Below are positions 3,456 through 64,000 of a stretch of DNA of 64,000 nucleotides, piece by piece. The position numbers and the translations under genes were made by a program. Source of the DNA: Cenococcum geophilum 1.58 (taxonomy: Eukaryota > Ascomycota > Dothideomycetes > Gloniales > Gloniaceae); contig KV748184.1 in NCBI GenBank assembly GCA_001692895.1, positions 1,116,001 through 1,180,000 on the forward strand, in the 5' to 3' direction. A model generated the notes under the pieces. That model did not search any database. It worked only from the letters and a program-made list of their open reading frames with translations, and had not been told where the DNA came from. How positions within the stretch are numbered: position 1 is the stretch's first letter; each line of letters opens with the position of its first letter.

Positions 3456-3606
3456 TAACGTAGTTAATAAAGTTTTGGCCGCTCCCTAGGTTATAACTAA
3501 TTAGAAAATTAAAATTAGTTAAAACACTAATTTAGTAGTAAATAACTAATAAAAGTTTAAATTAGTTATAACTTAGGGAGCGGCTAAACCCCCATTAACT
3601 ACGTTA
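3456..3606 (+). mobile_element. MITE copy 1, 151-bp fold-back element
   Basis: Starts TAACGTAGTTAAT and ends in the inverse, ATTAACTACGTTA. The terminal inverted repeats reach about 45 bp inward, through a GCCGCTCCCTAGGTTATAAC-type segment, and leave an AT-rich loop. A second copy of exactly the same length lies at 13827-13977 in opposite orientation. It encodes nothing. The family cannot be named from the sequence. An element with TA-rich ends and no ORF is most likely a non-autonomous DNA transposon. Confidence 0.85.
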
Positions 3607-13826: not shown

Positions 13827-13977
13827 TAACGTGGTTAATAGGGTTTTAACCACTCCCCTAGTTATAACTAATTTAAACTTTTATTAGTTGTTTACTACTA
13901 AATTAGTATTTTAGCTAGTTTTAATTTTCTAATTGGTTATATCTAGGGGAGTGGTCAAAACCCTGTTAACTACGTTA
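13827..13977 (-). mobile_element. MITE copy 2, 151-bp fold-back element
   Basis: Reverse complement of the 3456-3606 element and exactly the same length. The ends are TAACGTGGTTAA and TTAACTACGTTA. Differences between the copies are mostly C/T and G/A transitions. The loop keeps AACTAATAAAAGTTTAAATTAG in the same relative place. It sits between the F-box/ankyrin relic and the 3' end of the patatin relic. Confidence 0.85.
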
Positions 13978-15108: not shown

Positions 15109-15488
15109 TGTTACGGAGCGAGTATAAGCGGTGATAATATATAGCAAAGTAGATACTATTAAGCTATATATATAAACTGCGTAATAAAGTCAAGACGTTG
15201 CGTAAGGAGAGAAGGTAAGGAAACGGGAAGAAAGGGTATATATCGTTAGTTTGGTTACTTGGTTAATATATACACGGAGTAGAATAGGATTTAAATAGCG
15301 GTCCTAGCAGAACTTAGTAGAATTTAGTGGACTTAGCAGAATATAGTAGAATATAGCAAACTGCCGTTAGATTGCCGTAGATTGCCGTCTTGCAGTTAGT
15401 CTCTTTTTACTAAGTTAGTGGAAATAGGTAGACGAGTTGGTAGAAACAGGTAGGCGAGTATAAGGTGTTACAGAGGTGTCCCGTAATA
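15109..15488 (-). repeat. Gypsy-1 3' LTR
   Basis: 380 bp, TGTTACGGAGCGAG...CCGTAATA on the plus strand. Near-identical in length and order to 23556-23935. It contains the TAGCAGAAC/TAGTAGAAT tandem-like motif and TGCCGT-rich segment seen in the other LTR. Confidence 0.92.
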
Positions 15489-15660
15489 GTACCCCCCCTT
15501 TAAACTTGAGCTTCTGCGAGATAGGGCTGTAGTAATTCTAAATAGAGTTTATAAAAGTCTTCTGCGGCTTATATAAGTCCTATAGAGTTAACAAGTTCCT
15601 ATAAGGGCTTAGTAAAGCCTCTCCATTTTGTAAGGTATATATATTAGCGTCTCTAACCCA
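15489..15660 (-). other. Gypsy-1 polypurine tract and 3' internal remnant
   Basis: On the minus strand AAAGGGGGGGTAC directly precedes the 3' LTR. This is the position and composition expected for the plus-strand priming site. The rest is retroelement 3' UTR up to the LINE junction. Confidence 0.65.
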
Positions 15661-18130
15661 AGCCTCCCCCATAACAAGGGCCTTTAGGCTATGGCGAAAT
15701 GGGTAAAGAAAAAGGTAGGGCGCCTAGCAGAAGACCCACACCTACTACCCCTATGAAGAGCAGGAGAATCACAGGCCACAAACGACAACGATAAGAAGGC
15801 AAAGATCCTTATAGAAAGGTTCTTCCCCTAACCAGCTCCAGCAGACCTTAGTGATATCACGGGCAAAACACTGGTGACTCGCCTGCGGGTTAACAGCGAC
15901 ATAACAACAGAGGAAATGGCTAGAACCATTAGCCGCCTTTTAAATAATACAGCACTAGGACCAGATGGGATTCTAAATAAGGCCCTAAAAACCTATAGGC
16001 CACTTATAGCACCTTGGCTTGCAGATATAGCCAGAGTATGCTTTACTATAGGCTACTACCCGCGACTTGGAAGATCTATAATGACAGTTATCCTATAAAA
16101 AGAAGGCAAAGCAGATTACTTAATCCCAGGAAGCTACCGCCCTATTGCCTTAGAAAACACCCTTAGTAAGATCTTAGAAAGGGTAATAGCGGAACGCATA
16201 GCAGACACGGTAAAGGAACACGCCCTACTACTATAAAGCCAAATAGGGGCAAGAAAGAACCGCTTAATACTATTAGTACTTACGCTACTCGCTACCACTA
16301 TTAAATCTATATAGGCAATGCGAAAGGACTTTATAGTATTAATGCTTAGCCTAGATATTAGTGGTGCCTACAACAATATACCCCACAAGCGTCTCCTGTA
16401 TATCCTTAGGGTAAAGGGCTTCCTAGAATGGATTATATAATTTGTCTAAGGGTTTATAGGCCAGAAAGAAATATTACTAGTCTTCAGCGGATACCAGAGC
16501 CCCTCCATTGCAGTTATAACAGGAATACCACAAAAATTACCCCTCTCGCCTATACTCTTCCTTTTCTTTATAAGTAACCTGCTTAACTTCTTTAAGGAAG
16601 GGGCGACTTAGGGGATAGGCTTTGTTAATAACACAAACCTAATTATATACGGGCCAATAGCCGCAAAGAATTGCAGAACACTAGAGAAAGCCTATAACAC
16701 TTATATAGAATAAGCAAAATGTTATAGAGTCTAATTCTCACTAGAGAAATACCAGCTAATCCATTTTATAAGAAAACGCAACTAATTTGCAGATCTCTAG
16801 TATATAATTCGTATCTAAGGCTTTAGGGGTTAACTAGTTTAGGGCCTAAGGGTATTAAAAGTATAGGTAGATAGTAAGCTTTAGTGGAGCGTATATGCGG
16901 CGCAAGTGGCCCGTAAAGGCTAAGTATAGTTTATCGCTTTATCTAGGATTGTTAATTCTATATAGGGTCTATGCTTCCAGAGGTTACGCCTACTATATAT
17001 AGCAGTTGTCCGGCTAACTATAATATATAGATCTAGTATTTAGGCTATTAGAGAAACTAAAAAGGGCCCCCCTAAATTACTCCTTAAACCACTTTAAAAG
17101 GTCTAGATAGCCTGCCTCTAGAGTATTATAGGCGGGTATAAGTAAACGGCCACAGCACTGCTTAAGAAGGAATCCAATATTCCCCCCCTATAGTTACATA
17201 TTAAAGCCGCTGTAATATAAAGGATATAAAATAAACGCAACTCTAATGTTATAAAGTACATTAAGACACGCCTAAGTAAACTATAGAGGGACCCTAGGGT
17301 GCTCTATAGGAGAATAAACCAATAACCCTAAAGTAGGGAAGAGATATTAGAGAAATAGGTAAAGAAAGTAGAAGAAGAATAGTACCACTTTAGGGCCTAG
17401 GCCTATATAAAGAAGGAAGGGAGACGCGTAAGAGGTTAGTAAAGATAATAGTAAGATAGAGAAAGGAGCTAAAGTAGAACATATAAGAACGCCGGGAAAC
17501 CATCTACTGTAATGTAATACTGGTTAGACTAACGCTGGAGAGGTAAATAGGAGTTAAAGGTAGAGAGGCTAACTTAGGTAAGATAAACCTAAGCTATAGC
17601 ATAGTTAATACTATAGGGGGTAAATACCTAAGGGCTCCGAGAAGGCCTAATAAAGGCAGAAAATATAATAGCAATACTCTTAAGAACAGGAATAATAGGA
17701 CTAAAAGATTGGCTTTACTGGGTGGGTATCCTAGTAGGTAGCCTAAGATATAAATGTGGCTGGCTAAAACAGACACCAAAACACGTAATACTACTATGCC
17801 CCCTACGCACTAATTAAGAAATAATGCTCTTAGCAGCTGGTATAGAGAACTATAATACACTGCTCTTAATATAAAAAGGCCTTAAGGCGGTCACCTAGTA
17901 GCTTATTAGTTAAAATATACTAAATTAGTTCCGAGTTGTAAGGGAAATAGTAATAAAAGGCAAGGGGGCGAGTAGTAGGTGCCCCCTAGTAACTCTACAG
18001 TAGTAGAGTAATAGTTTATGATACTAGCGCGTCCGTAAGCTTATTACGGCAGTAGTGGTTCCTAAAAAGGTCAAATAGTAAGGTAGTAGAGCACTATAGG
18101 TAACTTATAGGCGCTAAGTAGGCAAGTCCT
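15660..18130 (+). mobile_element. 5'-truncated LINE (Tad1/I-like), RT to C-terminus
   Basis: Non-LTR retrotransposon ORF2 remnant on the plus strand. MAKWVKKKVGRLAEDPHLLP (15691) lies in the linker, then come GPDGILNKALK (about 15960) and PGSYRPIALENTLSKILER (about 16130), RT fingers. LDISGAYNNIPHKRLL (about 16350) is motif A. GIPQKLPLSPILF (about 16525) is motif B; GFVNNTNLI (about 16620) stands where the F/YxDD catalytic motif C belongs, so both Asp codons read Asn. An RNase H-like region and a CGW...PKHVILLCP zinc-like C-terminus (about 17755-17800) follow. The endonuclease domain is absent, as expected for 5' truncation. RIP stops are present but lighter in the first 600 bp. It is inserted in the 3' internal part of Gypsy-1, in opposite orientation. 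The exact 3' end (18130-18180) is uncertain. A second fragment lies at 1-1090. Confidence 0.85.
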
Positions 18131-23555: not shown

Positions 23556-23935
23556 TGTTACAGAGCGAGTATAAGCGGTAATAATATATAGCAAAGTAGA
23601 TACTATTAAGCTATATACATAAACTACGTAATAAAGTTAAGACGTTACGTAAGGAGAGAAGGTAAGGAAACGGGAAGAAAGGGTATATATCGTTAGTTTA
23701 GTTACTTAGTTAACACGTGCATAGAGCAGAATAGGATTTAAGTAGCGGTCCTAGCAGAACTTGGTAGAATTTAGTAGACTTGGCAGAATATAGCAGAATG
23801 TAGCAGACTGCCGTCAGATTGCCGTAGATTGCCGTCTCGCGGTCGGTCTCTTCTTACTAAGTCGGTGAAAACAGGTAGACAAGTCGGTGGAAACAGGTAG
23901 GCGAGTATAAGGTGTCACAGAGGTGTCCCATAACA
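23556..23935 (-). repeat. Gypsy-1 5' LTR
   Basis: 380 bp, TGTTACAGAGCGAG...CCCATAACA, with complete TGTTA/TAACA inverted tips. The element reads leftwards from here. The differences from the left LTR that I checked are all transitions. Confidence 0.92.
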
Positions 23936-25540
23936 GCTACCATCTTAGTAAGTGCCTAGGTTGTTAAGTACTTTAGGCTTAAAATACTATAGAGCCGCAG
24001 ATATATAGGAAGCACTTTTCTAGCGCAGTTAGTAGGAAACTTAGGTTAGGAAGGTAGGCTTTAGAGACTTACGCTTTACTAATTAATACGTTATACTCTA
24101 GTCGCTAAGCCTAAATAAGTTGGTACCCTTAAGTTAATATTAGTAAAATCGGATAAATAAATACCTCTAACTTATATACCGCACTCTTAAGATCTTTATC
24201 CTTTATTATAGTTTAATATTAGATAAGGTATAGTTAATTATATAGTCGTTATCATCACCGCAACCTTTGTGTCGTTCTTTAGTGGATTAAATATTTTAGG
24301 AGAAATGCCTAAACTCTATTAGAACGCGCTCTTAATAGTAAATAAATTATACTAATAGTCTCTAATAAGAGCGCTAATAAGTCTTTGAAATTTTTTTGTT
24401 AGGGAAAAGCGTCCTTAATTTTATAGAAAAGTCTTTCTAGCAAGCTCCTTAAATCGACGAAAAAACTCTTAGAGATTGTATGGTATAAAGTATATATTAA
24501 TGCCGATTAGGCCGCCTTAAAAGTATATTAGGAAACAAATTATTTAGCTAGTAACTAATATATACTAACTAAGGTCCTATAAATATAGTCGAAATAATCC
24601 TAGAGCGGGCAACCAAAATGCTAAACTTATTGCTTAATGTAATTAAGGAAAGTAAGAGGTATAACGCTACGAACACTACCTCTATCTATATAAAGAACAC
24701 GAGTGCTAGCTATAGGTGGAATGAATTAGAAGCTAGATATTTTTTAGGGTACCTTATAAAGTAAGTAAGAAGAAATAATAAATGTGTGCTTCTTTAACTT
24801 CGGTTTTTGGCTAAAGGTCTTAATATACATATTATAAATCGTATGGCCGTAGTTAAAGACCTTCTTAGGCATCCTTATTAGATAGTAAAAGCAAGATTTA
24901 TAGCTCTTAAATAGCGCGAATTATAGCTAAAAGGACTTAGGTCGTTAATAATATATAAGTAAGGCACTCTCTATAGTAGGCTATGATACTATTTTTATAA
25001 ATAAGGCTTCTATTTCCTCTTAAATAGCTAAAACGAATTTTTGTTGCATATCTTTATAGATAGTGTAATTATAAATTACGTTTCTGTAAGTATCTGCGAA
25101 AAGCGTATTAAAAATAAGTAATAGGAGGAAATCTACGCTAATTAGCTAAATAGTTAATTGGTATATTATACGATTCTTATAATAAGATCCTAGCGTATAA
25201 CTTGTTAGTAGTAAAGTAGAAGCAGTTAAAGGTACTATAAAATACTATAGCTACGCCTAGCTTAGTATTTTACTAATTAATTCTTATAGATGCTTTTAAA
25301 ATTCTTATATAGTAAATCTTTAGGGATAAGATAACTGAATAAAATAGAAAAAGGACTTATTTAAGTAAAATTGGTCTATTATAATTGTAGAAAGCGCTTT
25401 AAAATGGCGCATGTTAAAGAGAAATCTGTTATATCGGCGGGCCTATATAGCCTTAACAAAGACTAAAAGAAGGCGTTTGCGTAATACGGAGGAATAAATG
25501 CTGCGACTTTATTTCTGATTTAATTTAAGGACTTAAATGC
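23936..25540 (-). pseudogene. RING-like/patatin phospholipase relic, 5' part
   Basis: On the minus strand an N-terminal region of unknown fold (AIQEEIEALFIKIVSQP near 25020) leads to a RING-like zinc segment: MPKKVFNYGHTIYNMYIKTF near 24870, with a G-H-T-I knuckle and Cys codons apparently turned to Tyr. Then come TRVLYIDRGSVRSVIPLTFL near 24690 (GGGxRG oxyanion loop region) and FGCPLQDYFDYIYRT near 24600, the approach to the GxSxG elbow. TKVAVMITTI is near 24255. The frame reaches T-Y-x-D-G at the Gypsy-1 junction, where the catalytic DGG motif is split. RING-patatin proteins of this layout occur in Aspergillus-type fungi. Patatin effectors degrade membrane lipids. RIP stops are numerous. 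The start is not determinable; the N-terminus may extend beyond 25540. Confidence 0.8.
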
Positions 25541-31980: not shown

Positions 31981-32736
31981 AAATAACTAATTATAGAATA
32001 TATAGGCTATTCCCGTAGCAAGCCTAATAAAAGAAGATCTGCTTCTTTCTAGCTCTTAACCTAGTACAAACTTAAAAAATCTGGCTTCTATAATAGTAGT
32101 AGAATTATAAAGCGCCTAGTTAGCAATCTGCGCTCCCTATTTTAACTATAGAGTTACTCTAGTCTTTTACTTTTTCTCTAACTTACTATTAATATCCTAA
32201 TTAATTAAGATATAGTAAGGACCGTACCTTTTATCTCCTTTTATCTCTAAATTAAGCAGATTTAACTTAGTATTTATATTAGCTGCGCCCTCTATAAACT
32301 AAGCAACTCCAAAAATATCGTTAATATAACGCCTTATATATTTATATTTGCTATTATCTAGTTATTAGTCTCTATATTAATTAAAAGGTTTACTAACTTT
32401 TTAGTTCTCTAGCGGATTCTCTTTATACTAAAAATCCGCCGCAGTTAACTTAATTTAATACTTTAGATAGCTTTTTGGTCCATATTTGTTAATATACTTA
32501 ATACTCCTTCCAACAATTTACCTAATAGTTATTATAGATACACCCTTTACTACTTTTGGGCCGGGCCTATAATATAATAATTAACTATACTTAGGGTCCT
32601 CCTTTAAGTCCTTTTAACCTATAAGGTTAATAGGCTTATTCTCCCTACTATTCTCTATACTTTTATTAGCATAAGGAATGCTATTAAATATATCGTCGTC
32701 CTTTGTAGGCTCAGTTTTAATATTGTTGTTTTTCTT

Positions 32737-33080
32737 TTGGCCGTTGCCTTAGCCGTTATTTTAGCTATTATTTTAGCCGTTGCCTTAGCCGCTATTTTGG
32801 CCGTCGCCCTGGCCGTTATATTGGCCGTTATATTGGCCGTTGCCTTAGCCGTTGTTTTGGCCGTTGCTTTAGCCGTTACCTTAACCATTGTTTTAGCCGT
32901 TGCTTTAGCCGTTACCTTAACCGTTATTTTAGCCGTTGCTTTAGCTGTCATTTTAGCCGTTACCTTAGCCGTTATATTAGCTGTTGCTTTGGCCGTCGCC
33001 TTAACTATTACCTTAGCCGCTGCTTTGGCTATTACTTTAGCCGTTACTTTAGCCGTCGCCTTAACTGTTACCTTCCCCCT
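32737..33080. repeat. 12-bp tandem repeat (TTAGCCGTTGCC-like), about 28 units
   Basis: Continuous array of TT(A/G)GCCGTT(A/G)(C/T)(T/C/A). It is open in several frames on both strands because the unit length is a multiple of three and some frames lack TAA/TAG. It keeps GCC/GGC despite RIPed surroundings. The plus-strand ORF (32737-33132) gives Ala-Val-Leu-Ala repeats and the minus-strand ORF gives Ala-Lys-Thr repeats. Neither need be a real protein. Confidence 0.85.
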
Positions 33081-33869: not shown

Positions 33870-34313
33870 TACATTAGGAAATTTTTTTTCGGGCTCGTTA
33901 TTGCAGTTTGCGGCAATTTGCGGCAAACTGTACGGTCGCGGCAGTCGTATATGGTCTTGTGCGGTTTACGCATTTTACGGCAAACTGCATAGAGCCTACA
34001 TATTTTACAGCAACTTACAGTAAACTGCACAGAGCCTACGCATTTTATAGCAACTCGCAGCAAACGCGCAGAGCCTGTGTATTTTACACGTTTTGTATAT
34101 TTTATATATTTTATATATTTTGCACATTTTACATATTTTATACATTTTATATTTTGTATATTTATTATCCTATATAACTATATAAAATGTAGAGCTATTT
34201 ATTAAGCAATTAAGATAAGGGGGATACTCTTTACAAAGGCTCCAAATCATCAATTGGCGGTATTCCTGACGATCTGCTGGCTGTATACCGATTTCCTAAC
34301 TAGGCCTAGTGCC

Positions 34314-34600
34314 TGCCTGCCTGCCTACCTGTCTGTCTGTCTGTCTGTCTGTCTGCCTATCTGCCTGTCTGCCTGCCTGCCTGTCTATCTGTCTGTCTGT
34401 CTGTCTATCTATCTGTCTGTACCTGCCTATGCCTACCTGCCTATGCCTACTATTTATGCCTACCTGTCTGTGCCTACTGTCTGTGCCTACCTGTCTGTAC
34501 CTACCTGTCTGTGCTACCTGTCTATGCCTACCTGTCTATACCTACCGTCTGTGCCTCCTGTCTGTGCTACCGTCTATGCCTACCTGTCTGTAATTTGGGG
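34314..34600. repeat. CTGY tetranucleotide and CTGTCTGTGCCTAC-type repeats
   Basis: A pure CTGC/CTGT/CTAT tract to about 34430, then longer degenerate units CCTACCTGTCTGTGCC to about 34590. The two overlapping plus-strand ORFs here (Cys/Leu/Ser/Pro-rich) are products of the repeat. Confidence 0.85.
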
Positions 34601-34605
34601 GAAAG

Positions 34606-34870
34606 GTCGGCCCCGATCGAAGGCTCCGCCTAATTCGATTGATCGATTAATCGTATTAATTTAAATCGTTCTCTACGGCCGTTCGCTGGCTGTATATTCG
34701 AACGGTGGTCGTCTGGGGTGCCTACCTAGGAGGCCTTGATTCGATTCGGCGGACGGGCCGATATTAAAGCTCTGGTTTAATTCGATCGATCGGTTGATTG
34801 AATCGTTCGTGGCGTTCGCTGGATGGTCGTTCGAACGGTGGTCGTCTGGTTCTGGCGACGGTCGTCTGCT
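34606..34870. repeat. Two imperfect ~100-bp tandem copies rich in ATCGATCG and TTCGAACG
   Basis: TAATTCGATTGATCGATT...TTCGAACGGTGGTCGTCTGG near 34632-34718 recurs as TAATTCGATCGATCGGTTGA...TTCGAACGGTGGTCGTCTGG near 34780-34850. Dense in palindromic CGATCG and TTCGAA words. Confidence 0.7.
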
Positions 34871-35002
34871 AGCTGTCGTTCTGGTGTCTCCCTGTAGTAG
34901 AGGATATAAGGAAGGGTAGAAAATAGGTGGCTACCTAGGTGTATATAAGGGGTATCTTGGCAGAGGCACGTGTAGAGGCTATCGGGAATATAGCGGGGAC
35001 CC

Positions 35003-35545
35003 GATGCAGAGCTTCGTGTAGAGCCTCCGTACGCAGAGCTTCGCGCAAAGCCTCGTGCAGAGCCTCTGTACGTAGAGCTTCGTGTAGAGCCCTATGCAGA
35101 GCTTCGTGTAGAGCCTTGTGTAGAGCCTCGGTGCAAAGCTTCGTGTAGAGCTTCGTGCAGAGCTTCGTACAGAGCCTCGCATAGAGCCTCTGTACGCAGA
35201 GCTTTATGTAGAGCCTTGTGTAAAGCCTCGCGCAAAGCTTTGTGTAGAGCTTCGTGCAGGGCTTTGTGTAGAGCTTCGTGCAGAGCTTCGTGCAGAGCTT
35301 CGTACAGAGCTTCGTGTTAGAGCCTCGTGCAGAGCCTCTGTACGCAGACCTTCGTGTAGAGCCTCGTGTAGAGCCTCGTGCAAAGCCTTCGTGTAGAGCT
35401 TTGTGTAGAGCTTCGTGTAGAGCTTCGTGTAGAGCTTCGTGTAGAGCTTCGTGTAGAGCTTCGTGTAGAGCTTTGTGTAGAGCTTTGTGTAGAGCTTCGT
35501 GCAGAGCTTCGTGCAGAGCCTTAGTAGAGCTTTGTGCGGAGCTTT
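35003..35545. repeat. 12-bp minisatellite AGAGCTTCGTGT, about 45 units
   Basis: Near-continuous array of (A/C)AGAGC(T/C)T(C/T)(G/T)TGTAG-type 12-mers with two or three phase slips. Because 12 is divisible by three, it is open in frames on both strands: Ala-Leu-His-Glu on the minus strand (34935-35567) and Arg-Ala-Ser-Cys on the plus strand (35278-35574). I regard neither as a demonstrated gene. Confidence 0.9.
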
Positions 35546-35768
35546 GTGGTATTTTTATTGCAGCCAAAAATTAGGGTCTGCTTAAGTCGCGATTTTAGCA
35601 ATTTTAGCAATTTGCAGCAACTTGCACAGCAATTTGCACAGGCTACTTGCGTATTTATAGTAAATTGCTGCAAATTGCCGCAAATTGCCAAAATTGCGAC
35701 TTACGCAGGTTTTGCAGACCCCGATTTTCGCTTGCGACAACGTGCCCAAAAAAAAATTTCCTGATGTA

Positions 35769-37916: not shown

Positions 37917-38507
37917 ATGCCTAATAAATCCTATTGCGTAGGTAAATATAGGAGATAAACTAGATTTCTAGTGCGTTTTAATATTAAAAACTCTTAGAGC
38001 TATACTAATAGGGCTATATAGATTATTTAATTCGTGAAATGCGTTATATAAGGCAACCTTAAACTTTATAAATCCTACCTTTTTCCTTTTCTCTATAATG
38101 GTAACACCTTATAACTATTTTAGGGACTAAACTACCAGCTTTAAGATTCCTTAAAGCGCGCTAAATGGCACGGCTGCTCTTTAATAGTATTATCCCTTAT
38201 CCTTCTTATAAGGGCTATACTTATCCAACTAAGGCAGTGCGTTAGTTAACGCGCTATATTATATTCTTTAGTAAGCATTATAGGTAGTAGCGGCGATTAT
38301 AATATGTTTTAGGTAGATTAGGCAAGTGTTATAGTACGTATTACTTATTGGAATAGTACTAGCTTCCTCTATTTGTTTCTATAAAGTACTCCTAATATAT
38401 TCAGTTTTACGACGTAAATAATGTCTTATTAGAATAAGTTGTAATTAGAGGGCGAATTTATATAACTAGTTTTAGTAAATATATGTGTTAGATTAATAAT
38501 AGTAATT
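37917..38507 (+). pseudogene. Unrecognised RIP-degraded coding relic next to Gypsy-2
   Basis: ATG at about 37917 opens MPNKSYCVGKYRR and a plus-strand frame continues with RFLVRFNIKNS, FVKCVI*GNLKLYKSYLFPFLYNGNTL and KRAKWHGCSLIVLSLILLI (about 38165) to the Gypsy-2 target duplication at 38508. Basic start, then a hydrophobic stretch; family unknown. If the gene once continued past 38512, its remainder would start at 46605. Confidence 0.42.
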
Positions 38508-38512
38508 ATAAC

Positions 38513-39006
38513 TATAACGGAACCTTGTAGCAGGAACTACGGTGGATTCGTTAATGGGCTAGGTGTGTAGGTGATATAGGAAGTCAATAACGTAATAATA
38601 ACTGGTAGAGTGGTTGCCTAACAGATTAACTCCAATTGTATTCTAAGAATTACTACAAGGAAAGGAACTATTTAGGTAGGGACTATAGTCCTTTTAAATA
38701 CACGTCCGTACTCCTAAGAAAGTTATTACTCTATCTACTCCGTCTGCTCTGTTTGCTTTATAATAGATCTTATAGATTATATAGATTATATAGATTATAC
38801 AGATTATATAGATTATATAGATTATATAGATTATACAGATTATATAGATTATACAGATTATACAGATTATATTACGTGACTCTGCTTACTATTCCTTGTC
38901 ATATGGTTTTACTAGATCCATTCTAGACTATACCTCTATTAACTAACTAGCTTCTTCTAACTCTTCTCCAAGTAGTTATAATATTGTACTTAAAGCGTCC
39001 GTAACA
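38513..39006 (-). repeat. Gypsy-2 3' LTR (494 bp) with expanded 9-bp repeat
   Basis: TATAACGGAACC...GTCCGTAACA. It carries about 11-12 units of the 9-mer TATAGATTA/TACAGATTA at 38770-38870, read as Tyr-Arg-Leu triplets in the ORF at 38636-38926. The other LTR has far fewer. Confidence 0.9.
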
Positions 39007-42000
39007 CTATCTCCCTTCTTTCCATCTTTGTCCTTAAAGATACCTAGTATCTCTAGGTTATTTACTAGAGGTATAATATCTGTCTAATTAATTTAGTTAA
39101 TATTGTTACTTATTATACCTAAAGCTTCTTCTTCTTCTTCTATAGCTTGTTAGTCTCGTACTATTACTATAATATTATCTCTTAGTGAGATAATACCGTC
39201 TCTATATTCTTATTGTATAAAAGAGGGGTTAGTTTACGTTATATTGGCGAGTCCTTTATTCTAGTAACCCTCTTTTTATTTAGAGTACACTAAAGCAAAT
39301 ATTTAATTGTCCTATGACGTTCGCTCTATTTCTAACGCTAAGTATACGCGTCCTATTACTCTTAATAGTCGCTAAGTTCCCTAAGTAATTTATTATAGGG
39401 TTTTATGCTTAATCTGCTGCTATAAAGCTCGATAATAAGCTCTTAATTGCTCTTACTAAACTTTATTATTCTTATAACGCTAAGAAAGAGGCTACTAACG
39501 CTTAGTAACGCGCTCTTAATTCTTATCTTACTGCGTCCGCTCGGTTAATCCGTCTTAAAAAGGTTTATAAGAAGGTTCGTTTTAAGGAGTAAAAACTTAT
39601 AAAATAAGGCTTATAGGAACTTAGTAATAAAAGAACGGATTCTCTTCTAACTAAAAAGAAAATAACTCTAAGTAGTTCGGCAATCGTTCTTCCTATATCC
39701 TCCTTAGGTGGCTGATTCTTTAGTAATCCTTTTTTATTAATACTACCTAACCTTTTCTCTTCTAATACTCCTATACCTTTTCTATAGCATTTTTTAAATT
39801 TTCTAGTGGCTTCTATATAGTCTCATTATAGCCTATCTACTTTACTTTGTACTATGTCCTTATAACTAACGATCTTTAAAACTTACCATTTATCTTCTTC
39901 TTATCCTCTATATGTGTCTACTTCGTAAACTAGTAGCTTAATATTTCCGTATACTAGCTCTAGCATTGCGATATGCTGTATAGGGTAGATCTTTATTTTA
40001 GCTAGTAGGTTTAATTTAAACGTAATTAGTGAAAACCTTTTTATAATTTTAAAAGGTCCTAGTCTAACGTGGTTTAATTTCTTACTTAGTTATTAACTCT
40101 TAAAATTTTTATATAGTAGCTATACTCTATCTCCCTCCTTAAGATCTGGTCTTTTAGATCTCTTAGTATAGTACCTTTTTATTCTTTACTATACTACCTT
40201 TACTATTTCTATAAGGTCTATATAAAGATTTATTAATATCTCTATTCTTTACTTAGCTATACTACTCATTTTTTTTTAACTTAACGTGGCAATAGTGATG
40301 TTCTTAGCTTATATCCGTAATTCGCCCTAAATAGTAATGCTCCTATCCCTTCTTAAGGTGTCGCATTATATACAAACTATATAACTAGTAATAATAATAC
40401 CCAATTAGTCTATATATAATTAATATAGTGTCTTAGATATTGCTCTAGTGTCTAGTTTAATTTTTCCGTTTAACCGTCTGTCTGCGGGTAATATGCGGTA
40501 AAAGTTATTACTTAAACTCCTTACTCCGCTAAGAATACCTCCTAAAATACTACTATAAATCTTAGATCTCTGTCCGATATAATCTTATTTAGTACTCCGT
40601 GTTTTATAAATACTTCTTTAATATAGATTCTAGCGACGTCTTCTACCAAGATTTCTTTTATGTATGCTATAAAGTATTCCTACTTTATTAGCTTATCTAC
40701 TATTACTAAGATTACGTCGTAATTTTATCCAGTAATAGGATCTCTTAATTTTAGCAACTTTATAATAAAGTCCTATAATATAACCTCCTATAGTCTTTCT
40801 AGTATCTTAATAGGTTGTAGCCCCCTATATAGCTTATACCCTATTAGTTTATTTCTTTAGTAATCTAATTATTCTTTTATAACTTATTTTGCTAGTCCCT
40901 AAATTCTATTAATAATGTATTCCTTTTAAAGTCTTAACACTAAGCCTATAGCTCTATTATATTCTTAAGTTAATCCCTTATAAAATAACTTAATAAATTC
41001 TTTTATAATGTTTCTTGGTATATACGTTACTTTTTAGTTTTTATACTACTCTACGTTTAGATTCTCTACCTATACTTCTTAGATCTTTTATAACTATTTA
41101 CTCTCTAGTAATTTATAGGTCTAACTAATTTCTCTTATTACTATAATTTTTGGATAATTATATCTAATTAATCCGTCTGTGTCTTTTTGCAGTAAAGCCC
41201 CTAATAGCTTTTCGTTATTTTATAGTTTAGCCTTTTTACTTAGAGCATCTGCTTATATATTATCTGTACCCTTAATATACTAAATCTTAAAATAGTATTC
41301 TGTAAGTATCTCTACCTATCTAACCTATCTTTAATTAAGTTCTTTTATTATTAGGAACCCTATTAGGTTTTTATAATCCGTTTTAACTATAAATAGTTTC
41401 TCTATACCTTATAAGAATGCTCTCTATTTTTAAAATACTATAACTATACCTAGCAACTCCTTATTATAGATGTTATAGTTTAGTTCTAGTGGTATTATCT
41501 TCCAACTATAGTATACTACTAGGTGCTATCCATTTTTATATTTTTATAGAAAGTATGCCCCTAGTGCAAAGTCTAATGTATTCGTTTTAACTACTGTCTC
41601 TAGTTTTAGTTGGTAGATTTTAAGGATTAGGTCTTAAGTAAACAACTCCTTAACTTCTTTATATAGTTTCCTTTACTCTTTTTTTTATACCTAAGGTTCT
41701 TCTTTTTTTATTAACCTTATAAATGGCTTAATATCCTTTAACTATTAAGCTATAAACCTTCTGCGGTAATTTTAAAACCTTAAAAACGATCTTAACTGCG
41801 TAACGTTCTCTAGTTCTTACTAATTTACTATAGCCTTAATCTTCTTTAGATCTATACTAAATTGGCCTAGTTTAATAATAAATTTAATAAAATCTGTCTT
41901 CCTAGTAAAAAACTTATATTTTTTAATTGCTACTAGTATCTGTTCTTTATATAGTCTTTTTAAGACCTATTTAACGTGTTCTCCGTGTTCTTCCTTACTT

Positions 42001-45000: not shown

Positions 45001-46177
45001 TTATTCCTTATAGTACACTATTATCCCTTTATACGTATATATTATATACTATTAGTTTAGTTCCCTTTACTACGTAATAACTTTAACTACTTCTATAGTC
45101 TTTAGCGAAATAACCCTATTTTCTATAATTTATGTAAGCTCCGTCTTTAAACTATTACTTTTACTATAAAGTCCGCTTAAACGTCTTCTGCTATTAAGAT
45201 CCTTAGTTTAGCCTCTGCTCCTTAGTTCTATAATTACTTAATCCTTAACTTCTAGGTTTCTATAGTTATTTCCTCTATTTTTTATAGGTTTCTTTAGTAC
45301 TACTTAGGTCTATTAGCTTTACGCCATACTATAGTTTTTAATTTAACTTTAGTTATTACGTACTCTGCGTCTTATATAACTATAGAACTCTATCCTAACC
45401 TTTCTTAGCCTATTCCCTTTAAAAGATCCTATTGTTAATCCTAATCGCTTAATCTATTAATTCCCTAAGGGTATCCGCGTCTTCTATTAGAATAATTACG
45501 TCCTAGACTTTCGCTTTAAGTCCTTATTTATACTATGCTATAAGCGCCTTATTATTCCACTTAACCTATATGGCTAATGTCTGAAACTACGTTATATACT
45601 TAATTGCTAAGGTTTGCTGTAATAGGTCCTAAAGCTTTCTTTCCGCTATAGTTATTACTTTTAGGTCCCTAAATATTTATATTAATTATTCCGCGAATCT
45701 AGTCTAGCTTAAAAATATATATCATACTTCCTAATTAGTGGTTGTTATACTATTATCTTATATTTCCGTAAGATAGGGTTTAAACTATTTAAGTGCTCTT
45801 CCTGTTAGGAATAGACCTATATACGCTATTTAATCTATAGGTGTTACCAACTTTGCTCCTTTCTGTGTGACTTTAAAGTGCATTTACGTAAGGAATCCTT
45901 TCAGCTTTAATCTCTTTCCTAAGAATCGTTTAATTAAAGGTAACTTAACCTTAGCTACTCCTATTCCGTTAACCCTTTGCTTAAGTGCCGTGTTATTATC
46001 TGTTAATTAATTAACTATTACCTGTAACTGTCTGACTGTAACTAGTTATAAGTTAGTATCTGCTATACTAGTGTTATTACCTAACCCTAAGGCTGTTACT
46101 GCCGTTAATGGCGTTATTATGGCTACTTTTAGTAGTATATTGTTTAACTTCTAATACTATAACTGTGGTAGTAATTA

Positions 46178-46599
46178 TATAACGGAACCTTATAGTAGGA
46201 ACTACGGTGGATTCGTTAATAGGCTAGGTGTATAGGTAATGCAGGAAGTTAACAACGTAATAATAACTGGTGGAGTGGTTGCCTAACAGATTAACTCTAA
46301 TTGTATTTTAAGAATTACTATAAGGAAAGGAACTATCTAGGTAGGGACTGTAGTCCTTTTAAATACACGTCCGTACTCCTAAGAAAGTTATTACTCTATC
46401 TACTCCATCTACTCTGTTTGCTCTATAATAGATCTTATAGATTATACAGATTATATAGATTATATCACGTGACTTTGCTTACTATTCCTCGTCACATGGT
46501 TCCACTAGATCCATTCTGGACCGTGCCTCTATTAACTAACTAGCTTCTTCCGACTCTTCTCTAAGTAGGCGTAACATTGTACTTAAAGCGTCTGTAACA
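46178..46599 (-). repeat. Gypsy-2 5' LTR (422 bp)
   Basis: Same sequence as the left LTR apart from transitions and a shorter 9-bp tract at 46430-46465. The 72-bp difference equals eight 9-bp units. Confidence 0.9.
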
Positions 46600-46604
46600 A
46601 TAAC

Positions 46605-62074: not shown

Positions 62075-62600
62075 GTGTAGTGTTTTAAAGGGGTTGTAAA
62101 GGTTAACCTTAAAGCACTTAATTTTAAGCATCCTTTAGCGCGTAAATATTATTATAGGCCGTCTAAAAAAAAGGTTATAGTTTTAAAAAATGTTTTTAAG
62201 AGAACTAGTTGCGACTAATTAACTAAGGAATATTTTATTAAGGCTACTATAGATAATAATACACTTGTGGATGCCCTTAGGGTCTCTAGTATTAACGAGG
62301 ATACACTTTATTAAAAGGAAGATACTATAAAGATTCCTTACCTTCCTATAGCCTAAGTTGATTGCCTTAATAGATTATACCGCATTTATACTGCCGAGTA
62401 AGTTCTAGATCTAAATAATTAATAGTAAACTATTAAGCTTTACTCTAAACGTAAGTTTTAATATTTATACCCCTTTAAGTATCTAACGCGATTTCTAGAA
62501 CTCTCTTTAAATGCTTTAATAAATATTATAGAGGCCTTTAAAAACAAGCAGCCCTTTTTAGACGGAGAAATATTTTATAAGATCTTATTGTTCGTACTAA
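62075..62600 (+). pseudogene. Unrecognised RIP-degraded gene fragment
   Basis: Plus-strand frame: VVKVNLKALNFKHPLARKYY (about 62092), KVIVLKNVFKRTSCD, LTKEYFIKATIDNNTLVDAL, RVSSINEDTLY, VDCLNRLYRIYTAE, and FLELSLNALINIIEAFKNKQ (about 62490). It is cut off where the non-RIPed Copia end starts near 62605. It looks like a fungal accessory protein but I cannot name it. Confidence 0.48.
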
Positions 62601-62604
62601 CTTA

Positions 62605-64000
62605 ATAGCACGAGTGAGTCAGATCTAGGGGCACGAAATACGTATAGTATCGTATGCTCTTTTGGATAATAGTAACTGTCGATTGTATAAAGCAGACTAC
62701 GTGGTCTATATACTAATGCACCTCCCCCCTAATTAATCAGTGCTTTATAAGTGCACCAGACGCGTAAGCAAGTGGTTGGTGCACCGAACGCGTAAACGCG
62801 TACCTGGTGTACCAAACGCGTAAGCACGCGATCGGTACAGCAGGTGCTGTAATTATACACTAGCGGTACTTGAAAAATAAAACCAGATATATACACCCTC
62901 CATAATTGCTTTAATAAAACCATAAAACACAAAGGAAAATACATAGGAAATCTCCCTGAGGTGCCATCTAGGCTGCTTTCCAAACGGTGCCCCAAGCTGG
63001 CCGTAAGTCCTGCTTACGGTCCGTAAAATAAACCGTACGGCCGTTTAACGGGCTGTAAGTTAGATCTTAAGGGCCGCTAAGGCGCTAGTGCTAAGCAAGC
63101 TAATGGCGATTTCCTATCCCGGGGATAGAAAATCGTAATTAGTTAGTTTAACCGTCCTATAAAATTTAGCAGGTTACGTAAGTCCACTAAGTCCCACTAT
63201 AGCTTTCTACCGTTTTCCACCTATACCGTATAACGGGCCGTAAACGTACTGTAGGTGCTCCATTAGTCCCGTTCCACCCATTCTATAACTTCTAGGTTAA
63301 GCTTATTTATATTAATTAGGGTTTTAAGGGCTTAACACGGCTTTGCCTTAGTTATAGCGTCTACTAAGTTATTTCCGCCGCTAATCTATTTAACCTCCGT
63401 AATCTTACGTCGTTTATAGGCCTAATATAGGCACATTAGGTCGACCATAAGCCTCTTCTCTTATATCGTACCTAGTTTAACTAGGCAGTTATAGAGGGAC
63501 TTTAAATCGGTATATAGAACTAGGGGTAACTGCTCTAGCTATAGGATCTTTTGGATTGTTAATTTAATTACGGCTACTATATTAAAGCTATAACCTAGTA
63601 CGTATAGTTCGGAAGCTAGTACACTACAGGTTACTCGTTTATATTTAATTAAGGACTAGTACAGGATATTTACGTCCTAATTATAGTCCGTAAGTATAAG
63701 TATAAAGCCGATTTGTAATAATAGGTCCCTATTATTAGTAAAGGAGGCGTCTGTAAATACTAGTAGGCTAAGGGATTTTAGGTCTAGTGGTATAAAGGTA
63801 AGTCCCCTTACTGCATTATTAATTTGCCACTAGATACACTTATTAAGCTACTTAATATTTTCCTCTTACAGATCTACTACCTGGGCCGTAAAGGACAAAT
63901 CGTAGGCAAATTCGGGTTGGCAGACTATAGCAATATAGGCGCCTCTTGCGCGCTAGGCGGCGTATTAGTCCTTTATATTTACAGTCTTACGGGTCTCTCT
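62605..64000 (-). mobile_element. Ty1/Copia retrotransposon fossil, 3' part, continues beyond the window
   Basis: From 64000 to about 63270 the minus strand gives the C-terminal Copia RNase H: FTDASFTNNRDLLLQIGFIL near 63750, LASELYVLGYSFNIVAV near 63620, LPLVLYTDLKSLYNCLVKLG near 63530, KRLMVDLMCL near 63460 and LVDAITKAKPC near 63365. This part is RIPed. From about 63060 to 62605 the sequence is GC-balanced and CpA/TpG-rich, with a purine tract (TTAGGGGGGAGGTGCA on the minus strand) near 62722. The stretch 62615-62720 starts TGAG and ends TGCA and could be a short 3' LTR, the rest being 3' UTR. Broken in several places; LTR boundaries uncertain. Confidence 0.75.
62751..62834. repeat. 28-bp tandem repeat, three units
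   Basis: Three units beginning GTGCACC(A/G)(G/A)ACGCGTAA, exactly 28 bp apart, with a fourth partial start at 62835. They lie in the non-RIPed 3' region of the Copia element and are rich in MluI-like ACGCGT cores. Confidence 0.85.

Follow-up and report, generated by a model that had tools for sequence, protein, structure and literature searches.

Results

A 1.9-kb element with paired inverted ends

The window, which is the whole 64-kb stretch of DNA analysed here, carries an element that spans positions 33870 to 35768 (1899 bp) with its flanking TA dinucleotides and, exactly as given to the base in the original prediction, 33872 to 35766 once the TA is omitted. The left terminal inverted repeat (33870–33905, forward strand) and the right terminal inverted repeat (35733–35768, reverse strand) each measure 36 bp including the TA, rather than the about 28 bp first proposed, and the left end is identical to the reverse complement of the right end at 31 of 36 positions (29 of 34 without TA). 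TA lies directly outside both ends, as had been claimed, and can be read as a candidate target-site duplication, no empty site having been seen in the window. The 3-base target-site duplication of PIF/Harbinger elements was ruled out by the three outside bases, which differ between the two sides.

Comparison of all TA-bounded pairs spaced 400 to 4000 bp apart revealed that the ends of the element are the best pair in the window, with a runner-up at 27 of 36. In 200 first-order Markov sequences with the composition of the window, the best such pair matched at 26 to 29 positions and none reached 31, indicating that the paired ends exceed the expectation of this null, which leaves long A/T runs unmodelled although the ends contain them. 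When the spacing limit was lowered to 100 bp, two short hairpins scored 30 of 36 (3456–3606) and 32 of 36 (13827–13977). Oppositely oriented and about 86% identical to each other, these are TA-bounded 151-bp elements with ends TAACGTAGTTAA; they differ from the 1.9-kb element and seem to form a small MITE family of their own.

The similarity between the two sides of the element extends beyond the inverted ends. The left subterminal region, composed of TTTGCGGCAA repeats (33906–33957, forward strand), matches the right end as its reverse complement better than any of 200 shuffles, and includes a perfect 15-bp inverted match between 33912–33926 and 35675–35689. Subterminal motifs of the GCGGCAATTT type point inward at both ends, a similarity equalled by none of 200 shuffles. 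The right end also forms an unstranded hairpin (35555–35740), with 72-nt arms that are 72% complementary and a 42-nt loop, which holds inverted copies of the subterminal motif; its fold has a z of −6.0, and none of 200 shuffles was equally stable. The left end, in contrast, folds weakly (z −1.57). With five mismatches in 36 positions and ends that are unequal in folding, the element does not resemble a newly made insertion.

The interior is rich in tandem arrays

Arrays detected by Tandem Repeats Finder cover 1048 of the 1899 bp of the element (55%), compared with 2588 of 62,101 bp (4.2%) in the rest of the window, where the array-densest 1899-bp interval contains 444 bp of array. The original description of the element as made almost wholly of arrays was therefore overstated. 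All arrays stop inside the inverted ends. From the left, and all on the forward strand, there is a 40-bp array of 2.9 copies (33975–34088); a 9-bp array (TATTTTATA) of 9.1 copies, with multiples of 18, 27 and 36 bp (about 34080–34163); a unique stretch of about 145 bp; a 4-bp array of TGCC, TGTC and TATC units (34310–34420); a 14-bp array (TACCTGTCTATGCC) of 12.6 copies (about 34420–34591); a spacer rich in G+C and CpG (34592–34960); and a 12-bp array (AGAGCTTCGTGT) of 43.9 copies (35008–35548), the second half of which is more homogeneous. A 10-bp array of 3.7 copies (35662–35697) is enclosed by the right-end hairpin. The prediction of several distinct arrays held, with periods of 40, 9, 4, 14, 12 and 10 bp; the period first given as about 45 bp is 40 bp. 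The proposed array of about 100 bp is instead a diverged two-copy repeat within the G+C-rich spacer, its copies lying 133 and 147 bp apart.

Arrays also occur outside the element. A 12-bp array (TTTAGCCGTTAC) of 26.8 copies, unlike the 12-bp array of the element in sequence, lies in the mutated left flank (32736–33056). In addition, a pair of LTR-like direct repeats 7.7 kb apart (38500–39009 and 46169–46602) carries a 9-bp array (TTATATAGA), with 12.7 copies in one repeat and 4.2 in the other. The idea that arrays are peculiar to the 1.9-kb element was thus rejected in part; because the LTR-like copies vary too, array growth is not special to the element with terminal inverted repeats, but array density is.

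Coding capacity and searches for further copies

Only two stop-to-stop ORFs of at least 150 aa are present in the element, both running across arrays, and a Pfam search with the two peptides gave no match above the curated cut-off among the matches listed, bearing out the claim that the element has no recognisable transposase. A protein-coding role for the 12-bp array, which is spanned by a 211-aa frame, was rejected as well, all Pfam matches falling below the cut-off among the best 25 of 26; what keeps this frame open is the lack of a stop in the 12-bp unit.

Self-BLAST of the window matched the element to itself alone, with no second copy in 64 kb. The joined flanks likewise matched only themselves in the window, giving no empty site, and in self-BLAST the flanks matched elsewhere over no more than two segments of about 41 bp. 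A search of the window with an 18-base end pattern, allowing at most three mismatches, returned two matches, which are the element's own ends; at least two matches were obtained in 17 of 100 shuffles. The exact end pattern had no match in genome contig and viral contig collections, the gapped end pattern and an array unit had none in viral contigs, and blastn gave no match among plasmids and phages; because all of these collections are without fungi, their negative results weigh little. Matches of the gapped end pattern to two bacterial contigs were attributed to chance, since one showed a match of 14 bases and the other none at an E value of 1. Searches for Rfam families and tRNAs across the window found nothing. 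In literature text, a 14-base end string had no match; six end strings together matched 24 papers, and the 20 of these that were listed contained the 11-base string only and were unrelated by title.

The element contrasts with surroundings that carry RIP-like mutation

The DNA around the element is depleted of CpA (0.33 of expectation) and TpG (0.44) and has raised TpA (1.46), a pattern of repeat-induced point mutation (RIP) from which we infer an ascomycete-like fungal host with RIP. For the element, the observed over expected ratio of CpA plus TpG is 0.95, compared with a median of 0.39 and a maximum of 0.60 among 1167 outside intervals of equal length, in good agreement with the original prediction of non-RIPed DNA amid RIPed DNA. 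At a scale of 400 bp, outside intervals near 62601 reach 0.97 and the G+C-rich middle of the element drops to 0.59. The step in CpA plus TpG is sharp at the right end (1.40 to 0.20) and weaker at the left (0.56 to 1.06). This contrast is not merely an effect of the arrays, because the array-free 851 bp of the element differ too, with ratios of 0.72 for CA and 0.75 for TG compared with 0.33 and 0.44 outside the element. Among the 45 pieces of the 12-bp array, 35 are exactly 12 bp long; of these units, 20 have T and 15 have C at the CpA position, and 32 retain G at the TpG position. The element is thus lightly RIPed at most.

Several other features were noted in the window. A patch at 62500–62950 with near-normal CpA/TpG (at most 0.97 per 400 bp) contains a 28-bp repeat of 2.7 copies. 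Direct repeats at 15109–15493 and 23556–23941, about 90% identical, are probably the LTRs of an enclosed RIP-mutated retrotransposon. Inverted copies at 25–1082 and 17057–18114, which are 87% identical over 1059 bp, look like the 3′ portion of a retrotransposon, tentatively of the non-LTR type.

Relationships among the parts of the element

Comparison of the parts of the element with one another (45 pairs with 200 shuffles each, the mid / pre12 pair overlapping by construction) revealed ten pairs whose similarity was equalled by at most 10 of 200 shuffles, a level at which about two are expected by chance, and five pairs equalled by none. The 4-bp array is related to the 14-bp array, the 40-bp unit to both the right and the left subterminal regions, and the 12-bp array to its run-in (each 0 of 200); the fifth pair is the left subterminal region with the reverse complement of the right end, described above. 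The link between the 12-bp array and the 40-bp unit is weak (4 of 200), no relation of the 9-bp array to the 40-bp unit was shown by the shuffle comparison, and the 9-, 12- and 4-bp arrays for the most part show no kinship with each other. Because five part-to-part relations stood at 0 of 200 shuffles, these data support the view that some arrays grew in situ out of sequence belonging to the element. Ready-made capture is possible for the 12-bp and the 4- and 14-bp arrays, given the weak link of the former and the lack of a visible seed for the latter in the ends. Within the 12-bp array, mean identity between neighbouring units is 0.95 in the second half and 0.75 in the first (13 comparisons each), and this greater homogeneity suggests recent growth on the right side.

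Discussion

Origin and classification of the element

We propose, with a probability of roughly 0.7, that the element is a non-autonomous TA-inserting DNA transposon, either a relic or a recent copy, whose interior became filled by minisatellites that arose in situ. Its movement would depend on a transposase supplied from another locus, which would bind the 36-bp ends, possibly together with the inward-pointing subterminal motifs, excise the element and insert it at TA. The interior would consist of arrays without cargo function, which may have grown by slippage or by faulty repair, for example of the gap left after excision, aided by the right-end hairpin and drawing partly on the element's own sequence. 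Because the element is little mutated within RIP-mutated DNA, it most likely arrived after its surroundings had been mutated, or else long homology elsewhere may have been too scant for recognition. A single copy is compatible with either state first suggested, recent or resistant. The element has terminal inverted repeats and a TA flank in common with Tc1/mariner elements, and it is likened to them by the TA flank only. It falls outside the strict definition of a MITE because, in spite of having no recognisable transposase gene, it is too long at 1899 bp, compared with a typical MITE length reported as about 400 bp (PMC9659126), and is present as one copy in the 64-kb window.

It is also conceivable, if unlikely, that the locus is a minisatellite-rich island that was never duplicated and so escaped RIP by being single-copy, its inverted ends being due to chance or left by an older bordering element. 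The arrays in the mutated surroundings (4.2% cover), such as that at 32736–33056, would fit such an island, as would the second patch of normal CpA/TpG near 62601 and the finding of no other copy in the 64-kb window, but an equal TA-bounded pair arose in none of the 200 Markov sequences, the change in CpA/TpG coincides with the ends, and inward-facing subterminal motifs are common to both. Somewhat less credible is a RIP-resistant transposon family, in which arrays vary so much between copies that too little aligned homology is left for RIP. RIP is reported to need about 400 bp of homology, and at times 150 bp (PMC10787394); arrays would then protect the element because no two copies share a few hundred aligned bases. 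In favour of this reading, the element is unmutated among mutated repeats, and with 55% array cover its largest array-free blocks are short. Several copies are required, however, and none was found in the window; moreover, since RIP in Neurospora can sense homology as triplets spaced 11 to 12 bp (PMC4858203), a 541-bp array of 12-bp near-repeats might attract RIP, and light RIP may have occurred, given the T at the CpA position in 20 of 35 units, although the TpG position is G in 32.

We are more doubtful still that a fungal TA-inserting family serves as a moving minisatellite nursery in which array turnover hides copies from RIP, so that the arrays act as a defence. The similarity of the inner arm of the right-end hairpin to the outer end, together with its 72-nt arms and stable fold, would be compatible with a foldback-type element, in which the right end with its hairpin would have arisen by nested or inverted duplication of an end and would itself be the mobile unit in place of the whole 1.9 kb. 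This seems very improbable, since the hairpin has no flanking direct repeat and the left end forms no comparable fold. Foldback elements, moreover, usually have longer matched terminal inverted repeats and, as described for Tetris, 8–10-bp target duplications (PMC4079207), and in place of long, internally repetitive ends the matched ends here are 36 bp. On balance, a non-autonomous transposon filled with minisatellites remains our preferred reading, and the element is real, unusual, of a known kind and probably mobile. That it acts as a mobile satellite source, as originally suggested, is a hypothesis.

The RIP-free state is the interesting part of the element. If more copies exist, they would reveal whether mobile DNA rich in arrays evades RIP, and would offer a natural test of the homology pattern that RIP detects, the period of the 541-bp 12-bp array being close to the Neurospora triplet spacing; the element would then also be a probable fungal case of a process for which most known examples come from animals and plants. 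Taken as a single copy, it is a curiosity.

Comparison with known repeat-bearing elements

The original prediction considered the element a candidate for something undescribed; as regards its kind, this fails. Tandem repeats carried or seeded by MITEs or foldback elements have been described from Xenopus, moths, bivalves, Messor ants, rye and Drosophila (PMC9659126, PMC4079207, PMC12628747, PMC6947457). Because repeat-carrying transposons are thus known from animals and plants, the element, although unusual, is probably not a new kind of thing. A literature search found no fungal element with terminal inverted repeats of such make-up, which may still exist in print. A fungal parallel among the closest known systems is a subtelomeric non-LTR element of Mycosphaerella graminicola, whose length is reported to vary with tandem-repeat number (PMC4522978); it too is a fungal transposable element with tandem repeats, but it is a retrotransposon without terminal inverted repeats.

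Drosophila Tetris and Galileo are described as foldback elements with terminal inverted repeats and internal tandem repeats that can seed satellites (PMC4079207). Tetris resembles the element in having internal tandem repeats and no conserved ORF, but in Tetris and Galileo the repeats lie in long terminal inverted repeats, and Tetris makes the longer target duplications noted above, whereas the element combines short terminal inverted repeats with TA. MITEs with (GTCY)n microsatellites in Lepidoptera, and Xmix/Xstir in Xenopus (PMC9659126), similarly carry tandem repeats; their repeats are different, agreeing with the 4-bp unit in its GTCT form only, maybe by chance. Finally, miDNA4 of Xenopus tropicalis is a Tc1/mariner MITE with an internal satellite, for which a mechanism of array gain and loss has been proposed (PMC9659126, PMC12628747). 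Like the element, it is a non-autonomous inverted-repeat element that encloses a tandem array; as described, it contains one satellite type, whereas the element studied here, with one known copy in RIP-mutated surroundings, holds at least five periods side by side.
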